Shown here: one piece after another, positions 1,049 through 21,211 of the stretch
Layout: the number at the start of each line of letters is the position of its first letter
Numbering within the stretch: position 1 is the stretch's first letter
Virus record (IMG/VR): IMGVR_UViG_3300044535_001729
Span: 1 to 21,881 of that record
Length of the DNA stretch: 21,881 nt
Strand: one strand, 5' to 3'
Source: a virus
The notes under the pieces: model-generated
The model's input: only the letters and a program-made list of their open reading frames with translations
What the model was told of the DNA's origin: nothing
Database searches by the model: none
Position numbers and translations under genes: made by a program

Positions 1049-1153
1049 ATGAAATCCAAACTCCTCCGCGCTCTAGGATTCCTAGCGCTTCACCTCCTCC
1101 TCCTCCCGGTCATCTGGCTTCTTGCTGACGCTTTGATCGGAGGTGCCCAATGA
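1049..1153 (+). CDS. Single-pass membrane microprotein (34 aa), coupled to the GP88/DUF7227-like gene
   Basis: A 34-codon frame starts MKSKLLRALGFLAL and continues as a Leu-rich hydrophobic stretch (residues about 9-29) before a short polar end. It is a basic N-terminus followed by one membrane helix, as in small inner-membrane proteins. Its stop overlaps the next start as ATGA (1150-1153), indicating translational coupling. A second 34-residue membrane protein beginning MKSALRKLSSFLAL lies directly before the other DUF7227-like gene at 20253-20924. The recurring arrangement supports a real gene. The function is unknown; a holin-like or anchoring role is possible but not shown. Confidence 0.65.
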   Translation: MKSKLLRALGFLALHLLLLPVIWLLADALIGGAQ

Positions 1154-1854
1154 ACGGATTCATCCTTCATGAAGATCGCGATCGCGTGATCATCGCGACG
1201 GGCTTCGAGACCCCAAGCGACAACCGGAAGACGGGCGACATGATCCAAGTGTGGATCCTAGTGAAATCTGTTTCCCCCACCGAAGCGATCAAATCGGGCT
1301 TGGACCGTTTGATTTGTGGCAATTGCGTCCATCGCGGGCACGAAGAAAACGGTCGCTTCGGTGTGGAAAGGACATGCTACGTAAATCCCGGCCAAGCTCC
1401 CCAAGGGATTTGGAAAGCGTGGAAAGCGGGCCGATACTCTCCCTTGCGTAGTCTCGAGTGTTTCGCAGGCCGGAAAGTCCGTTTCGGAGCCTACGGGGAC
1501 CCCACACATTTGCCCCTTCCCCTTGCGCTCGCGATCGCCGGCGTTTCTTCCGGATGGACAGGCTATACTCACCAATGGAGAAAACCCTCTTTGCAGGCTT
1601 GGCGTTCCCTTCTAATGGCTTCCGTTGATTCCATCGCTGAACTTGTGATCGCCCGTTCCCTTGGCTGGAGTACTTTCCGCGTCGGCTCCGAAGCTTCGGT
1701 AGGCGAGTCGCTTTGCGCCTCCGAGCGTGTCGGTGCCGCTTGCGCCGACTGCCTCCTTTGCGCCGGGGCTCGGGGTGGTCTCGAGTCTGTCCACATTCCG
1801 CCCCACGGGACCGGTGCCCGCCATTTCGTGGACATGCCTGCTTTGATCGCTTGA
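1150..1854 (+). CDS. Cys-rich phage protein, GP88/DUF7227-like
   Basis: The 234-residue protein has Cys clusters near both ends: C56, C59 and C76 in ICGNCVHRG...TCYVNPGQ, then CADCLLCAG followed by a conserved PHGTGA. In between are WKAGRY, FGAYGDP and GWTGYTHQWR segments. The same framework occurs in the protein at 20253-20924 (CPFKKSGCYA, HNQAGDLPG, GFTYTHKPLT, CDKCRLCAKA, PHGTGAK), so the two are distant paralogues. Proteins of this kind are frequent in phage genomes, with no established biochemistry that I know of. The spaced Cys residues suggest a metal or Fe-S site (inference). It is translationally coupled to the membrane microprotein upstream. Confidence 0.7.
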   Translation: MNGFILHEDRDRVIIATGFETPSDNRKTGDMIQVWILVKSVSPTEAIKSGLDRLICGNCVHRGHEENGRFGVERTCYVNPGQAPQGIWKAWKAGRYSPLRSLECFAGRKVRFGAYGDPTHLPLPLALAIAGVSSGWTGYTHQWRKPSLQAWRSLLMASVDSIAELVIARSLGWSTFRVGSEASVGESLCASERVGAACADCLLCAGARGGLESVHIPPHGTGARHFVDMPALIA

Positions 1855-2154: not shown

Positions 2155-2500
2155 ACCCATGAAATTCCTTTCCCCCCCTATCAATTCGCTCGAAGCGGTT
2201 TTCCCCGGAAAGGGAAAGCGGGCGAAGGAGATTCTCCGGATGAGCCGGCGTGAGCTCGAGCAATTGCCCGCGGGCGCTGCACGGGTTCGGGAATGCTGCA
2301 ACCCGCCGTCAACCCGGGACCTCCGGATGGAATGCCTGAACGAATTGCTCGAGACCCATGGGGTTGAGGCTTTCGAGACCGAAAAGGGTTGGTGCTATTA
2401 CCTGAACGTCGGCGACCCATACGTCACGACGGTCTTGAAGTTCAACGGGCACTATCGTCTCTGCTGTTGGGGAGACATTGCCGAAAGGTACGCAGTATGA
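2141..2500 (+). CDS. Conserved phage hypothetical protein
   Basis: This protein is 119 residues from the ATG at 2141, or 113 from the ATG at 2159. Both start codons lie close to the previous gene's stop at 2154. Segments such as SLEAVFPGKGKRAKEIL, then ECLNELLETHGVEAFE, then YYLNVGDPYVTTVL and a final GHYRLCCWGDIAERY match a widespread phage protein architecture of unknown function. The central part is helical and the C-terminal part beta-rich. The stop is shared with the next start as ATGA (2497-2500), so it forms a small operon with the genes on both sides. Confidence 0.7.
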   Translation: MFSFEPMKFLSPPINSLEAVFPGKGKRAKEILRMSRRELEQLPAGAARVRECCNPPSTRDLRMECLNELLETHGVEAFETEKGWCYYLNVGDPYVTTVLKFNGHYRLCCWGDIAERYAV

Positions 2501-2589
2501 GCGATCTTTTTCGCGCCCTTGGCTATCTTCTCCTTGGCGCTTTCTTCGTTGCCCTGATGGTCCTCTCCGCCCTTGCGGGCAACGGCTGA
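2497..2589 (+). CDS. 30-residue membrane microprotein
   Basis: The frame starts at ATG 2497, sharing ATGA with the previous stop, and encodes MSDLFRALGYLLLGAFF followed by VALMVLSALAGNG. This is a short polar start, one hydrophobic helix and a Gly/Asn end. The 4-bp coupling and uninterrupted hydrophobicity support a real product. Its function is unknown. It is the last gene of the left plus-strand cluster and is followed by a hairpin with a T-rich tail. Confidence 0.55.
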   Translation: MSDLFRALGYLLLGAFFVALMVLSALAGNG

Positions 2590-5055: not shown

Positions 5056-5691
5056 ATGAGTTACCTAGACAATGGTTCAACGCTTCGGTCGATGTTCCGA
5101 CTGATGCCCCCGCAACGCCACGATGCTGATCCGGATCGATCCGAGGTTCTGGCCTACATTCGTGAGAATCTTAGATGTGAGCTTGGCCGTGCAATACGCG
5201 CATTCAACTCTATGAGGAACAAGAAGTCCCAGGTGATTGTATATGACATGGTTCATAGGCAGTGGCGTGGGTGTGACTGGGTGCCTCCGGAGGATGAGGA
5301 CAAGGTTTCGCTGCTCTTGAGAACCATCAATGAGCTGAAGCGTGACGTTGCGTATCTGAAGACTTCGGTGAAGAAGCACGAGAGGTTGTTTGGCCAACTG
5401 GAGCGTAAGCGATCGCGCAAGCGCGAGGAGGAGGAGCCCGACTCCGATGTTGAGGCTCAGGAACAGAAAAGCTCCCCGGATGTGAATCCTGAGGAGCTCG
5501 AGCGTAAGAAGAGGGAAGAGGAAGATGCGGCTTACGATAAGTCTTCCAAGGAGTTTTGGGGTGCTATCCTCGCCGAAATGAACGACGAGCCGGTGGCTTC
5601 GGCTGCTTCAACTCGGCCCCGGTCATCACCATGGGATTCCACTGCTCCCACACAATCCCACTTGGAGAATGCTGAAGATGTAGTGAGTTAG
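5056..5691 (+). CDS. MPPxRHD family protein, paralogue A (charged, unknown function)
   Basis: A 211-residue protein. Residues 1-80 (MSYLDNGSTLRSMFRLMPP, RHDADPDRSEVLAYI, AIRAFNSMR, RQWRGCDWVPP) align with the product of 15629-16132. A coiled-coil-like helix follows (about 80-115, INELKRDVAYLKTSVKKHER). The rest is a long Lys/Arg/Glu/Asp-rich, probably disordered region ending in a Ser/Thr/Pro-rich tail. ATG 5056 is chosen because homology with the paralogue starts at MSYL and the proposed promoter leaves no room upstream. The last 128 bases overlap the convergent primase-helicase gene. No catalytic motif is visible; a nucleic-acid or scaffold role is possible. Confidence 0.8.
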   Translation: MSYLDNGSTLRSMFRLMPPQRHDADPDRSEVLAYIRENLRCELGRAIRAFNSMRNKKSQVIVYDMVHRQWRGCDWVPPEDEDKVSLLLRTINELKRDVAYLKTSVKKHERLFGQLERKRSRKREEEEPDSDVEAQEQKSSPDVNPEELERKKREEEDAAYDKSSKEFWGAILAEMNDEPVASAASTRPRSSPWDSTAPTQSHLENAEDVVS

Positions 5692-7414
5692 CATCCAGCC
5701 TTGATCCGCGCTTGCAGAAGGCCAGTTGGAACCGTCGAGGCTTCGACTGGCCTACTTCTACCAAGACCGCGATCTCCCGCGCCCAGTTAGCGAGTTCGCT
5801 GGATCCGAACCCGGAGTGGGCGAGTTCCATGGTGGTCATGGGTTCGCCGTCCTTCCGCTGGGCTTTGGAGATGTGGTGCATCCAGATCCAAGCGACCTTG
5901 GTCTGGTGGAGGATGGGCTGGAGCTTGTTCCGAAGGAACGTGCTGACCTCGCCCTGGTCGCTGAGGTCTCCCCCGAAGTAGGAGAAGAGCGGGTCACCGA
6001 TGATGACATCGAGCTTCGATCGGGTGATGAATCTCTTCGCGTAGGCCAGGAATGCGTCACCGGTGCGGACGGCCTCGGTGCGGAAGTGCAGGTTCTCTTG
6101 GAGGATGCGGATGTCGGGCGTGTGCATGTTCAGCCCCTTGATGACGCCCTTGAATGCTTCGGCGAGGTCGCCCTTGTCGTTCTCGGCTTGGACGATACCG
6201 ATGCGGAGTGGTCGTACAGGTGCAACACCGAAGAAGTCCCTGCCCATGGCCCACTGGATGACGATCTGCATCATCAGGGATGACTTCCCGATGCCGGTGC
6301 CACCGGAGATGATCATGGAGGAGCCGCGTGTGAGCCACCGTTTGCCGATGAGGTTATCCGGATCGTTGTCCGGGTCGAAGTTGATGAGGTCTTTGACCGT
6401 GACGACGGTGGCCTTGTCATCATCGGTCTCCCGATCGGTGAGCCAATCTTCCCATGATCGAGCGCCGAGGTTGATGTCCAACAGCTTCTGCTTCTCTTCC
6501 CCCCGCCAGGAGCCGGGGAGCCGGGAGAAGCGCGATGGGTTCTTGTTCTTGGGATCGACATCGGGGATTGCCGAGTAGATGAGGTCCCTGCGGGCGTCCC
6601 ATTCCTTGCGGTTGGGGGCATCGACACGGACCCATGCATGGATGGACTTGCCACCGGAGTCGATGAGGACGCTGATGGGAAGGCCCGAGGAGCGGAGGAG
6701 CTGTTCCTGCTCGGCCTTGGGTTTGGAATCGAACTCCACCAGGACATGGCGGTACGCGCTGACATCGTTGTCGGAGCCGCTGTAGAGGTTGGGCTTGAAC
6801 GGGTTGATGCGTACGAAGACGCCATCGGTTCGGTCGCTGCGGAACAGGATGGACTCGGGATCATCGAAGCGAGCGATCCAGTCCTCGAGGGGAAGGAAGG
6901 AGCCGGCACTGATTGGCCTACCATCCTCGACCTGCTCGCAGATGCAGACCACCTCGGTGGCCGCGAAGGCGGATGTGAGGAAACGCTTAAACTCCGAGGC
7001 GTCGTGCGAGGCCGGTATGGGGGCTGCGGGCGGGTTTGATGGCGCGGACGGCTCCACGGACCCCTCTGGTACCCGCGGAGGCTCCACAGGCTTTGGCCTA
7101 CTGAACCGCACCCGTGTCAGGTCCAATGGCTCAGCGGGGCTGCTTGTTGAGGAATTGGCGAGGTGCCCGCGGGGCTTGGAGTGGGACTTCTCATTGGCCT
7201 GTCGGATCTTGTGGAGGAGTTCGCGGTCCTGCCAGGGTGGTTGGCATGAGCGGTTCCAATCGGACAGGAGTGTGAATGCGTCTGTGTCTGATAGGCCGAA
7301 GCCGTGGACGAGGCCAACGGCGGCGGTGTAGGTTTGTGAGTGCCCTCCGGATCCGGAGATGGCTGGCGGTACCTTGGCGAGCCAAAGCGCCGCTCGTTCG
7401 AGGAGCGTTGTCAT
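5564..7414 (-). CDS. Primase-helicase replication protein (AEP-like primase plus RepA/AAA_25-like ATPase)
   Basis: This 616-residue protein probably primes and unwinds DNA at the phage fork. Residues 1-75 (LAKVPPAISGSGGHSQTY...WNRSCQPPW...ELLHKI) resemble the helical domain found with phage primases. After a Pro-rich linker, residues 150-325 look like an archaeo-eukaryotic-type primase, with HVLVEFDSK (acidic pair), SGLPISVLIDSGGKSIHAWV and FSRLPGS. Residues 355-580 are a RepA/DnaB-like ATPase: Walker A GGTGIGKSS (371-379), Walker B LDVIIGDP (468-475) and MHHISK (512-517). The start codon lies 20 bases after the preceding gene. It is the last gene of the long minus-strand replication arm. Its 3' end overlaps the convergent gene at 5056-5691 by 128 bases. 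Confidence 0.93.
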   Translation of the reverse strand: MTTLLERAALWLAKVPPAISGSGGHSQTYTAAVGLVHGFGLSDTDAFTLLSDWNRSCQPPWQDRELLHKIRQANEKSHSKPRGHLANSSTSSPAEPLDLTRVRFSRPKPVEPPRVPEGSVEPSAPSNPPAAPIPASHDASEFKRFLTSAFAATEVVCICEQVEDGRPISAGSFLPLEDWIARFDDPESILFRSDRTDGVFVRINPFKPNLYSGSDNDVSAYRHVLVEFDSKPKAEQEQLLRSSGLPISVLIDSGGKSIHAWVRVDAPNRKEWDARRDLIYSAIPDVDPKNKNPSRFSRLPGSWRGEEKQKLLDINLGARSWEDWLTDRETDDDKATVVTVKDLINFDPDNDPDNLIGKRWLTRGSSMIISGGTGIGKSSLMMQIVIQWAMGRDFFGVAPVRPLRIGIVQAENDKGDLAEAFKGVIKGLNMHTPDIRILQENLHFRTEAVRTGDAFLAYAKRFITRSKLDVIIGDPLFSYFGGDLSDQGEVSTFLRNKLQPILHQTKVAWIWMHHISKAQRKDGEPMTTMELAHSGFGSSELANWAREIAVLVEVGQSKPRRFQLAFCKRGSRLDANSLHLQHSPSGIVWEQWNPMVMTGAELKQPKPPARRSFRRG

Positions 7415-17585: not shown

Positions 17586-17975
17586 TTACCGTCCGGTGAA
17601 ATGATGGTTTTCGGTGAATTGAACTGTCATGGAATCCTTGACGGTTCGCTGGCGTTCAAGCTCGCGCATGACACGTCGGCCATAGGCGCGCGTGGACGAT
17701 CTTTTAAGGGCTTTTGGCCCACCTTGCCAGAGCCGAGCGAGACTTTCGTCGCTGAGGTGTTTGCCGTAATGCGAGAAATAGGACTCCGCGATGAAGATCG
17801 AGATGGTCCGATTCGTTACCTGCGCGTGGGAATAGTCTGTTCCCATGATGCGGTTCACGTCGCGGACCATGATCGACTTAATCTGCAACGCGCCAAGTTC
17901 GCCGTGTTTGCCGCGCGCATGATCGTTTCCACCGGATTCGACCTGAATGAGAGCGGATAAGAGCAATGGATGCAT
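17586..17975 (-). CDS. Lytic transglycosylase-like (SLT fold) protein
   Basis: A 129-residue protein likely to cleave peptidoglycan glycan strands. Residues 1-60 contain LLLSALIQVESGGNDHARGK and GELGALQIKSIMVRDVNRI, the catalytic 'xxESGxxxxA...GxxGxxQI' core with Glu13 as the likely acid. HLSDESLARLWQGGPKAL and AYGRRVMRELER follow. It starts at the first amino acids of the domain and an in-frame stop lies 24 bases upstream, so there is no signal peptide or anchor. It could be released by a holin as an endolysin or act in the virion. No holin is clearly adjacent. Family membership rests on motif reading. Confidence 0.75.
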   Translation of the reverse strand: MHPLLLSALIQVESGGNDHARGKHGELGALQIKSIMVRDVNRIMGTDYSHAQVTNRTISIFIAESYFSHYGKHLSDESLARLWQGGPKALKRSSTRAYGRRVMRELERQRTVKDSMTVQFTENHHFTGR

Positions 17976-20207: not shown

Positions 20208-20252
20208 AGAGACGTGTCAACCTACCGACGGCCGATAGATTGAAGCGGACCG

Positions 20253-20924
20253 TCAATTTCCGGCCGTTGTGATTCGTTGCACCCGTTTGGCACCCGTTCC
20301 GTGCGGTTTGAATCCGACAATGAACCCACGGTTTGCTTTCGCGCATAGGCGGCACTTGTCACACGATAGGTTGTCAACGCGTTGTGCGGGGCAGATGACC
20401 ACGCGGTTGCCATCGGGTGTTGTGAAACGGTCAGGGCTGTTTTGAGGCACTACGGCCGCAACCGGAAGGCCTGTCTTGACCAATTGGTCCGCATGATTGA
20501 CGGAATTGGCGGACAGGTTGACAACGAAACCGCGCTCATTGGCGGACCGTAGTGCGGACAGGTTGTCAGGCGTCAATGGCTTGTGAGTGTAGGTGAAACC
20601 GCGCTTGCCAGTGTTGGCGGTTGCAAGTTCATCTAGTGCGGTTGCGTCAATTGAATCACCGACACCCGGCAAATCACCGGCTTGGTTGTGACGCCACAAT
20701 TGGCCAGCTGGGAATGATCGGACTTTGGACAGGAAAGCGGACCAGTCAAAACCGCGCTGTCCGCTTGTTACTTTAGACCAATGCAACGCAAGCGGACCGG
20801 AGTCAGCATAACAACCGGATTTCTTGAATGGGCATGCATCGGAGCATGTAGCGGCCGATGATGTGGAAACCGGAATGGGGCCGGTTTTCGCGTTGGAAGA
20901 CTTGAGGGTTAAATGGACTTTCAT
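20253..20924 (-). CDS. GP88/DUF7227-like Cys-rich phage protein
   Basis: A 223-residue protein with C27, C31 and C38 in TCSDACPFKKSGCYADSGPL, then SFPAGQLWRHNQAGDLPGVG, GKRGFTYTHKPLT and VVNLSANSVNHAD. The C-terminal CDKCRLCAKA is followed by GFKPHGTGAKRVQ. This full set of motifs is characteristic of a phage family of unknown function (DUF7227/GP88-like). It is a paralogue of 1150-1854. The many conserved Cys may bind metal or an Fe-S cluster (inference). It starts in a CCAATG context without SD. A small membrane protein of the same size as the one beside the paralogue lies immediately upstream. Confidence 0.78.
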   Translation of the reverse strand: MKVHLTLKSSNAKTGPIPVSTSSAATCSDACPFKKSGCYADSGPLALHWSKVTSGQRGFDWSAFLSKVRSFPAGQLWRHNQAGDLPGVGDSIDATALDELATANTGKRGFTYTHKPLTPDNLSALRSANERGFVVNLSANSVNHADQLVKTGLPVAAVVPQNSPDRFTTPDGNRVVICPAQRVDNLSCDKCRLCAKANRGFIVGFKPHGTGAKRVQRITTAGN

Positions 20925-20942: not shown

Positions 20943-21047
20943 TTAGAATTGAGAGGCGAAGAAAAGGAAGTAAAAGGCGTAACCTAGGACAGCGTAGGTG
21001 ATGCAAAGGGCTAGGAAGGAAGAGAGTTTGCGGAGCGCGGATTTCAT
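20943..21047 (-). CDS. Single-pass membrane microprotein (34 aa), partner of the DUF7227-like gene
   Basis: The frame starts at ATG 21047 and encodes MKSALRKLSSFLALCITY then AVLGYAFYFLFFASQF. This is a short basic start and one long hydrophobic helix (residues about 10-32). Longer in-frame starts exist, but the MKS start mirrors the microprotein at 1049-1153 (also 34 residues, MKSKLLRALGFLAL). It ends 18 bases before the DUF7227-like start. Conservation of gene order supports it. The role is unknown. Confidence 0.6.
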   Translation of the reverse strand: MKSALRKLSSFLALCITYAVLGYAFYFLFFASQF

Positions 21048-21211
21048 TGCTGCGGACAGACTAGGGTGGACGTGGTGGGGAGTCAAAGAAAAAGTTTGAA
21101 AAAGTTTAGAAAGGGGGAAAAGGGCCGGATTCATTGGGGAAAATGCGCTTGTCGTCAGCCTGTCGTCAGCGCGCTTGTCGGCCCGTCAGGCCGTCTGTAC
21201 GTTCCCGACAG

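Follow-up and report, generated by a model that had tools for sequence, protein, structure and literature searches.

In a virus fragment of 21.9 kb (IMGVR_UViG_3300044535_001729; all of its 21,881 nucleotides were analysed and are called the window below), two genes for membrane microproteins of 34 aa each lie directly before a gene for a Cys-rich protein. The pairing of such a microprotein with a gene of the GP88 superfamily (a name used here for DUF7227 and GP88 together on the strength of one weak profile match and of exchange in one slot) is real within this freshwater phage lineage, where it occurs at two distinct sites and involves three families of Cys-rich proteins. The microproteins are genuine, and the microprotein gene and the Cys-rich gene are swapped one by one and independently of each other, the breakpoints falling on or close to start and stop codons. 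With slightly better than even probability, an accessory operon begins at each site, and in it an autonomous microprotein is associated with its neighbour by shared expression or role rather than in a fixed complex.

Two microprotein genes and their junctions

The features of the two pairs are as follows.

1049-1153, plus strand: microprotein of 34 aa with a single membrane helix, family a; ATG start; pN/pS 0.25
1139-1144, plus strand: GGAGGT ribosome-binding site of the P0003 gene, read from the sequence, within the last codons of the 1049-1153 microprotein
1150-1854, plus strand: P0003, Cys-rich protein of 234 aa, phrog_2554 family, without a Pfam match; profile match to the DUF7227 family
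20253-20924, minus strand: P0004, Cys-rich protein of 223 aa, DUF7227 (PF23872) by Pfam; AlphaFold2 model with TIM-barrel matches
20943-21047, minus strand: microprotein of 34 aa with a single membrane helix, SQF family; ATG start; pN/pS 0.38; a letter-identical copy stands before GP88 elsewhere
21058-21086, minus strand: putative promoter TTGACT-17 nt-TAGTCT, lying 10 nt upstream of the ATG of the SQF microprotein

The family a microprotein reads MKSKLLRALGFLALHLLLLPVIWLLADALIGGAQ and the SQF microprotein MKSALRKLSSFLALCITYAVLGYAFYFLFFASQF. Their hydropathy maxima of 2.0-2.4 mark them as short proteins with a membrane helix. As a sequence-only reading had claimed, the small single-helix ORF precedes the Cys-rich protein directly at both sites, both microproteins being exactly 34 aa long with an ATG start, and the stop and start overlap (ATGA, 1150-1153) in the first pair. 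A mechanical scan of the whole window found an ORF of this type before a called gene at P0003 and P0004 only; the gene calls are likewise mechanical. Neither microprotein has a sequence match in Pfam or PADLOC (PADLOC gave no match at all), and the best PHROGs match has an E value of 0.44.

The junction of the first pair could mean that the small frame merely feeds ribosomes to the downstream gene by translational coupling and that its peptide has no role. The overlap with a ribosome site in the last codons would fit such coupling, and it is an ordinary junction type here, as other parts of the window also have ATGA junctions, many of which contain a ribosome site. The second pair, on the other hand, has a gap of 18 nt and no overlap. 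Moreover, six microprotein families show pN/pS of 0.25-0.40 with differences concentrated at third codon positions, which excludes a frame open by chance and speaks against a mere leader, and every one of the unrelated families retains a single hydrophobic helix. Coupling without a role for the peptide is thus extremely unlikely. The promoter-like sequence recurs, strongly conserved, 10 nt upstream of many SQF-type microproteins. The SQF microprotein is therefore probably the gene next to the promoter, with hardly any leader, and the copy at 21058-21086, which a simple consensus scan does not list, suggests near-leaderless mRNAs in this phage group.

Most of the microprotein families show no homology to each other in comparisons of family profiles; families a and c are the one apparent exception. 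The two window microproteins reach a probability of 3.3%, and class-preserving shuffles equal their ungapped identity in 9% and their local score in 1% of cases. Homology between the two is therefore not supported, and the MKS...FLAL pattern that had been pointed out in both is poor evidence for it. A third single-helix microprotein, MSDLFRALGYLLLGAFFVALMVLSALAGNG, is encoded at 2497-2589 (plus strand), where its frame overlaps the stop codon that ends the 2099-2500 ORF; in one other locus a homologue lies directly before an ORF of 103 aa. At 5564-7414 (minus strand) the window encodes a replication protein of primase/helicase-like type that contains an AAA_25 domain.

Recurrence and exchange of the two partners

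We counted microproteins upstream of relatives of the two Cys-rich genes under one start-codon rule and a hydropathy cut-off, either directly upstream or within 450 bp. A microprotein is found directly upstream of 32 of the 69 P0004 relatives and within 450 bp of 39; for the 54 relatives of P0003 the numbers are 25 and 54. Control genes have one directly upstream in 2/252 cases at the P0004 loci and 0/189 at the P0003 loci, and within 450 bp in 14/252 and 9/189 cases (about 5% of the controls overall). The relatives are metagenomic fragments of common ancestry and these counts overstate their independence. When GTG and TTG starts are allowed, all but three of the 40 closest P0004 relatives (at least 74% identity) have a microprotein directly upstream. 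Small membrane proteins also stand directly before such genes in two cultured phages: gp2 (51 aa) before GP88 (gp3) in Pelagibacter phage HTVC134P, and gp51 (55 aa) before a phrog_2554-type gene in Roseobacter phage CRP-403. The recurrence before DUF7227/GP88-like genes of other phages on which the sequence-only reading depended is thus observed, GP88 neighbours included.

The pairing does not extend to a rule that DUF7227 always has a microprotein. Outside this lineage, 4 of the 47 DUF7227 representatives tested have one directly upstream (one locus was taken per cluster, so that a few microprotein-bearing clusters were missed), the Mycobacterium and Gordonia phages examined show no small membrane protein directly before the Cys-rich gene, and most DUF7227/GP88-type genes in cultured phages are without a microprotein. 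In the Pseudomonas phages PAK_P1, VCM and psageK4e, a protein of 126-131 aa with a C-terminal membrane helix is encoded just ahead of DUF7227 or with one gene in between.

It is also evident that the partners are exchanged. At the P0003 site, four microprotein families are combined with six different middle genes (84-105 aa) or with none, and P0003-type genes with 96.7% DNA identity are accompanied by microproteins of different families. The six middle genes, which are unrelated to each other, are inserted at one junction upstream of the P0003-type gene; all end in Gly-Gly, and the codons of these two residues serve as ribosome-binding site for the following gene. Similarly, a DUF7227 protein 99% identical to P0004 is preceded by a TPNH microprotein and not by the SQF type (L003). 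A search from the microprotein side with degenerate DNA patterns found 37 DUF7227 genes, 22 GP88 genes and about a score of unrelated genes behind SQF and TPNH microproteins; the GP88 found there is true GP88 (Pfam, 4.8e-50). Other genes follow about a third of the microproteins. The exact SQF 34-mer of the window precedes DUF7227 in some phages and GP88 in others. In two loci (L480 and L504) the DNA matches the window across the microprotein as far as 20919, close to where DUF7227 starts (20924); no similarity is left within the DUF7227 gene, and the match sets in again at 20225, beyond the stop codon of that gene. This is a clean replacement of a single gene. The family a microprotein likewise precedes a 206-aa protein and others, and in two loci a 350-aa protein with a weak profile match to amidoligases. 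Swapping gene by gene at start and stop junctions also demonstrates that one slot can be occupied by unrelated microproteins, and this makes the function of the slot testable.

The exchange bears directly on the proposal that microprotein and Cys-rich protein work together as a membrane-tethered complex. A specific complex fits poorly with free swapping, with an identical microprotein before GP88 and with intervening genes. The complex is still the main rival, in a form in which the microprotein would anchor or activate a Cys-rich metalloprotein at the membrane by a generic contact that many different helix sequences could make. It would explain why all 54 P0003 relatives (a co-occurrence stronger than operon sharing by itself would require) and most of the close P0004 relatives keep an upstream microprotein, why unrelated microproteins stand before DUF7227, P0003-type and GP88 proteins alike, and why HTVC134P gp2 and CRP-403 gp51 directly precede their GP88 and phrog_2554-type genes. 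We nevertheless consider it unlikely, for unrelated microproteins are exchanged before near-identical partners, the same microprotein serves different partners or is followed by other genes, further genes are inserted between the two, and most DUF7227 genes do without. An autonomous microprotein in a shared operon fits better with the interchangeable microproteins, the different neighbours and the inserted genes.

The Cys-rich proteins and their possible relation to radical-SAM enzymes

P0004 matches PF23872 (DUF7227) with 305.8 bits (E = 2.3e-91, residues 1-219; cut-off 27 bits), and PF17338 (GP88) with 23.9 bits, just under the cut-off of 24.4. P0003 has no Pfam match and stays below the 27-bit DUF7227 cut-off; 4 of 16 members of its family match DUF7227, the best with an E value of only 0.056. 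Both proteins match phrog_2554 (E = 4e-63 for P0003 and 1.6e-50 for P0004), a PHROG entry with neither a function nor a microprotein partner, and neither matches NCBIfam. A profile-profile comparison of the wider families links the P0003 and DUF7227 families over 185 columns (93.5% probability, E = 2e-7), and by this comparison the two proteins, about 23% identical, are distant paralogues. Of the earlier claim that both are GP88/DUF7227-like, P0004 is a DUF7227 protein and both belong to phrog_2554, while the Pfam assignment fails for P0003; the "duplicated pair" is one of related and diverged Cys-rich proteins and not of a recent duplication. The two proteins share S-x-N-x-KTG and C..C..CY as well as the TH motif, CxxC..C and PHGTGA, the latter three being of the kinds that had been listed. 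In the family alignments, each family has seven invariant Cys (C27, C31, C38, C178, C188, C191 and C194 in that of P0004; C56, C59, C76, C189, C198, C201 and C204 in that of P0003), which make metal binding plausible.

P0004 matches DUF7227 of the Pseudomonas phage PAK_P1 type over its whole length and is 51-57% identical to the nearest proteins of cultured phages; unlike P0004, the cultured relatives examined have no single-helix gene of 25-45 aa directly upstream. GP88 (PF17338; the type of Mycobacterium phages and of HTVC134P gp3) takes the slot of DUF7227 behind the same microprotein, and apart from its weak profile match to P0004 there is no direct profile-profile match between the GP88 and DUF7227 alignments used here. 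In the class searched, those genomic matches to the GP88 profile that were readable are DUF5131 proteins. DUF5131 (Gp37/Gp68) was considered as a bridge to radical-SAM proteins and rejected, as it gives no profile match to DUF7227 or P0003.

The AlphaFold2 model of P0004 (pLDDT 91.6) is TIM-barrel-like; P0003 gave a poor model (pLDDT 49), and the fold search was made for P0004. The top structure match is the PFL activating enzyme (PFL-AE, 3cb8; Z = 6.1), accompanied by QueE, EpeE, PqqE, SkfB and lipoyl synthase, all at Z values of 6.1 and below, no higher than the background seen for models that have no clear match. Unrelated TIM barrels, the tryptophan synthase alpha chains, score nearly as high (Z = 5.8), so the resemblance to radical-SAM enzymes is a lead only. 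Among viral models the best matches of P0004 are DUF7227, GP88 and one Gp37/Gp68-like protein. Besides the fold, which does not discriminate at such Z values, P0004 shares with radical-SAM enzymes such as PFL-AE, QueE and EpeE an N-terminal Cys cluster ending in CYA and a C-terminal Cys cluster. The Cys-rich proteins differ from them in lacking the canonical CX3CX2C motif (the P0004 family has CX3CX6C, the P0003 family C56/C59/C76), and PDB sequence searches gave no credible match. GP88-superfamily proteins are candidates for metal-binding TIM barrels that are possibly radical-SAM-like.

Such a likeness would allow the microprotein to be the peptide substrate of a radical-SAM-like peptide-modifying enzyme, as in a RiPP-like pair. 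The small gene directly before an Fe-S/TIM-barrel candidate and the peptide-modifying enzymes EpeE, SkfB and PqqE among the structure matches would agree with this, but the microprotein families have no common core, the Cys spacing of DUF7227 is CX3CX6C rather than CX3CX2C, and one and the same microprotein stands before proteins of two different families; we consider this very unlikely. A broader two-part phage system, in which a GP88-superfamily Fe-S (radical-SAM-like) enzyme would recruit, anchor or chemically modify any of many unrelated single-helix peptides at the host membrane while the peptide part is swapped rapidly, has a low probability.

A proposed accessory operon of exchangeable genes

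The reading that we prefer is an accessory operon of exchangeable single-gene cassettes with the microprotein as its promoter-side membrane gene. A translated single-pass microprotein would come first, followed directly or after one small inserted gene by a GP88-superfamily protein, which the second slot appears to favour. The microprotein would lie in the inner membrane, N-in/C-out to judge only by the charge of its basic N-terminus, and would act alone, whereas the Cys-rich protein would be a soluble TIM-barrel enzyme that binds a metal or an Fe-S cluster and is perhaps radical-SAM-like. The two would be linked by shared expression and a shared accessory role and not as lock and key.

From its size, position and turnover, the microprotein would most likely be a modulator of the host envelope, for example in superinfection exclusion or in anti-host or anti-defence functions. 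Phage superinfection-exclusion and other host-modulating membrane proteins are short and are encoded in exchangeable accessory cassettes, which the microproteins resemble by analogy; they differ in that those of the window have no sequence match in Pfam or PADLOC and at best one with E = 0.44 in PHROGs. Type I toxins and single-gene lysis proteins are also small, with a basic N-terminus and a single helix, and by the same kind of likeness the microprotein could be a membrane toxin or a lysis or holin-like protein, with or without its neighbour as control. This is quite improbable, since the SLT lysozyme-like gene (17586-17975) is far away from either microprotein and the Cys-rich neighbour, being exchangeable, would be no dedicated antitoxin.

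A full-text literature search found no paper naming DUF7227, PF17338 or DUF5131, and a search on the expression timing of the Cys-rich genes gave no usable result. Hundreds of sequenced phages (of Mycobacterium, Pseudomonas, Pelagibacter and Prochlorococcus) encode proteins of the GP88, DUF7227 and phrog_2554 types, and a conserved, selected and exchangeable membrane gene alongside them offers a first handle on their setting. In HTVC134P, P-SSP7 and CRP-345 the GP88/DUF7227 genes begin within about the first 1.1 kb of the genome record, a position consistent with an early accessory role.
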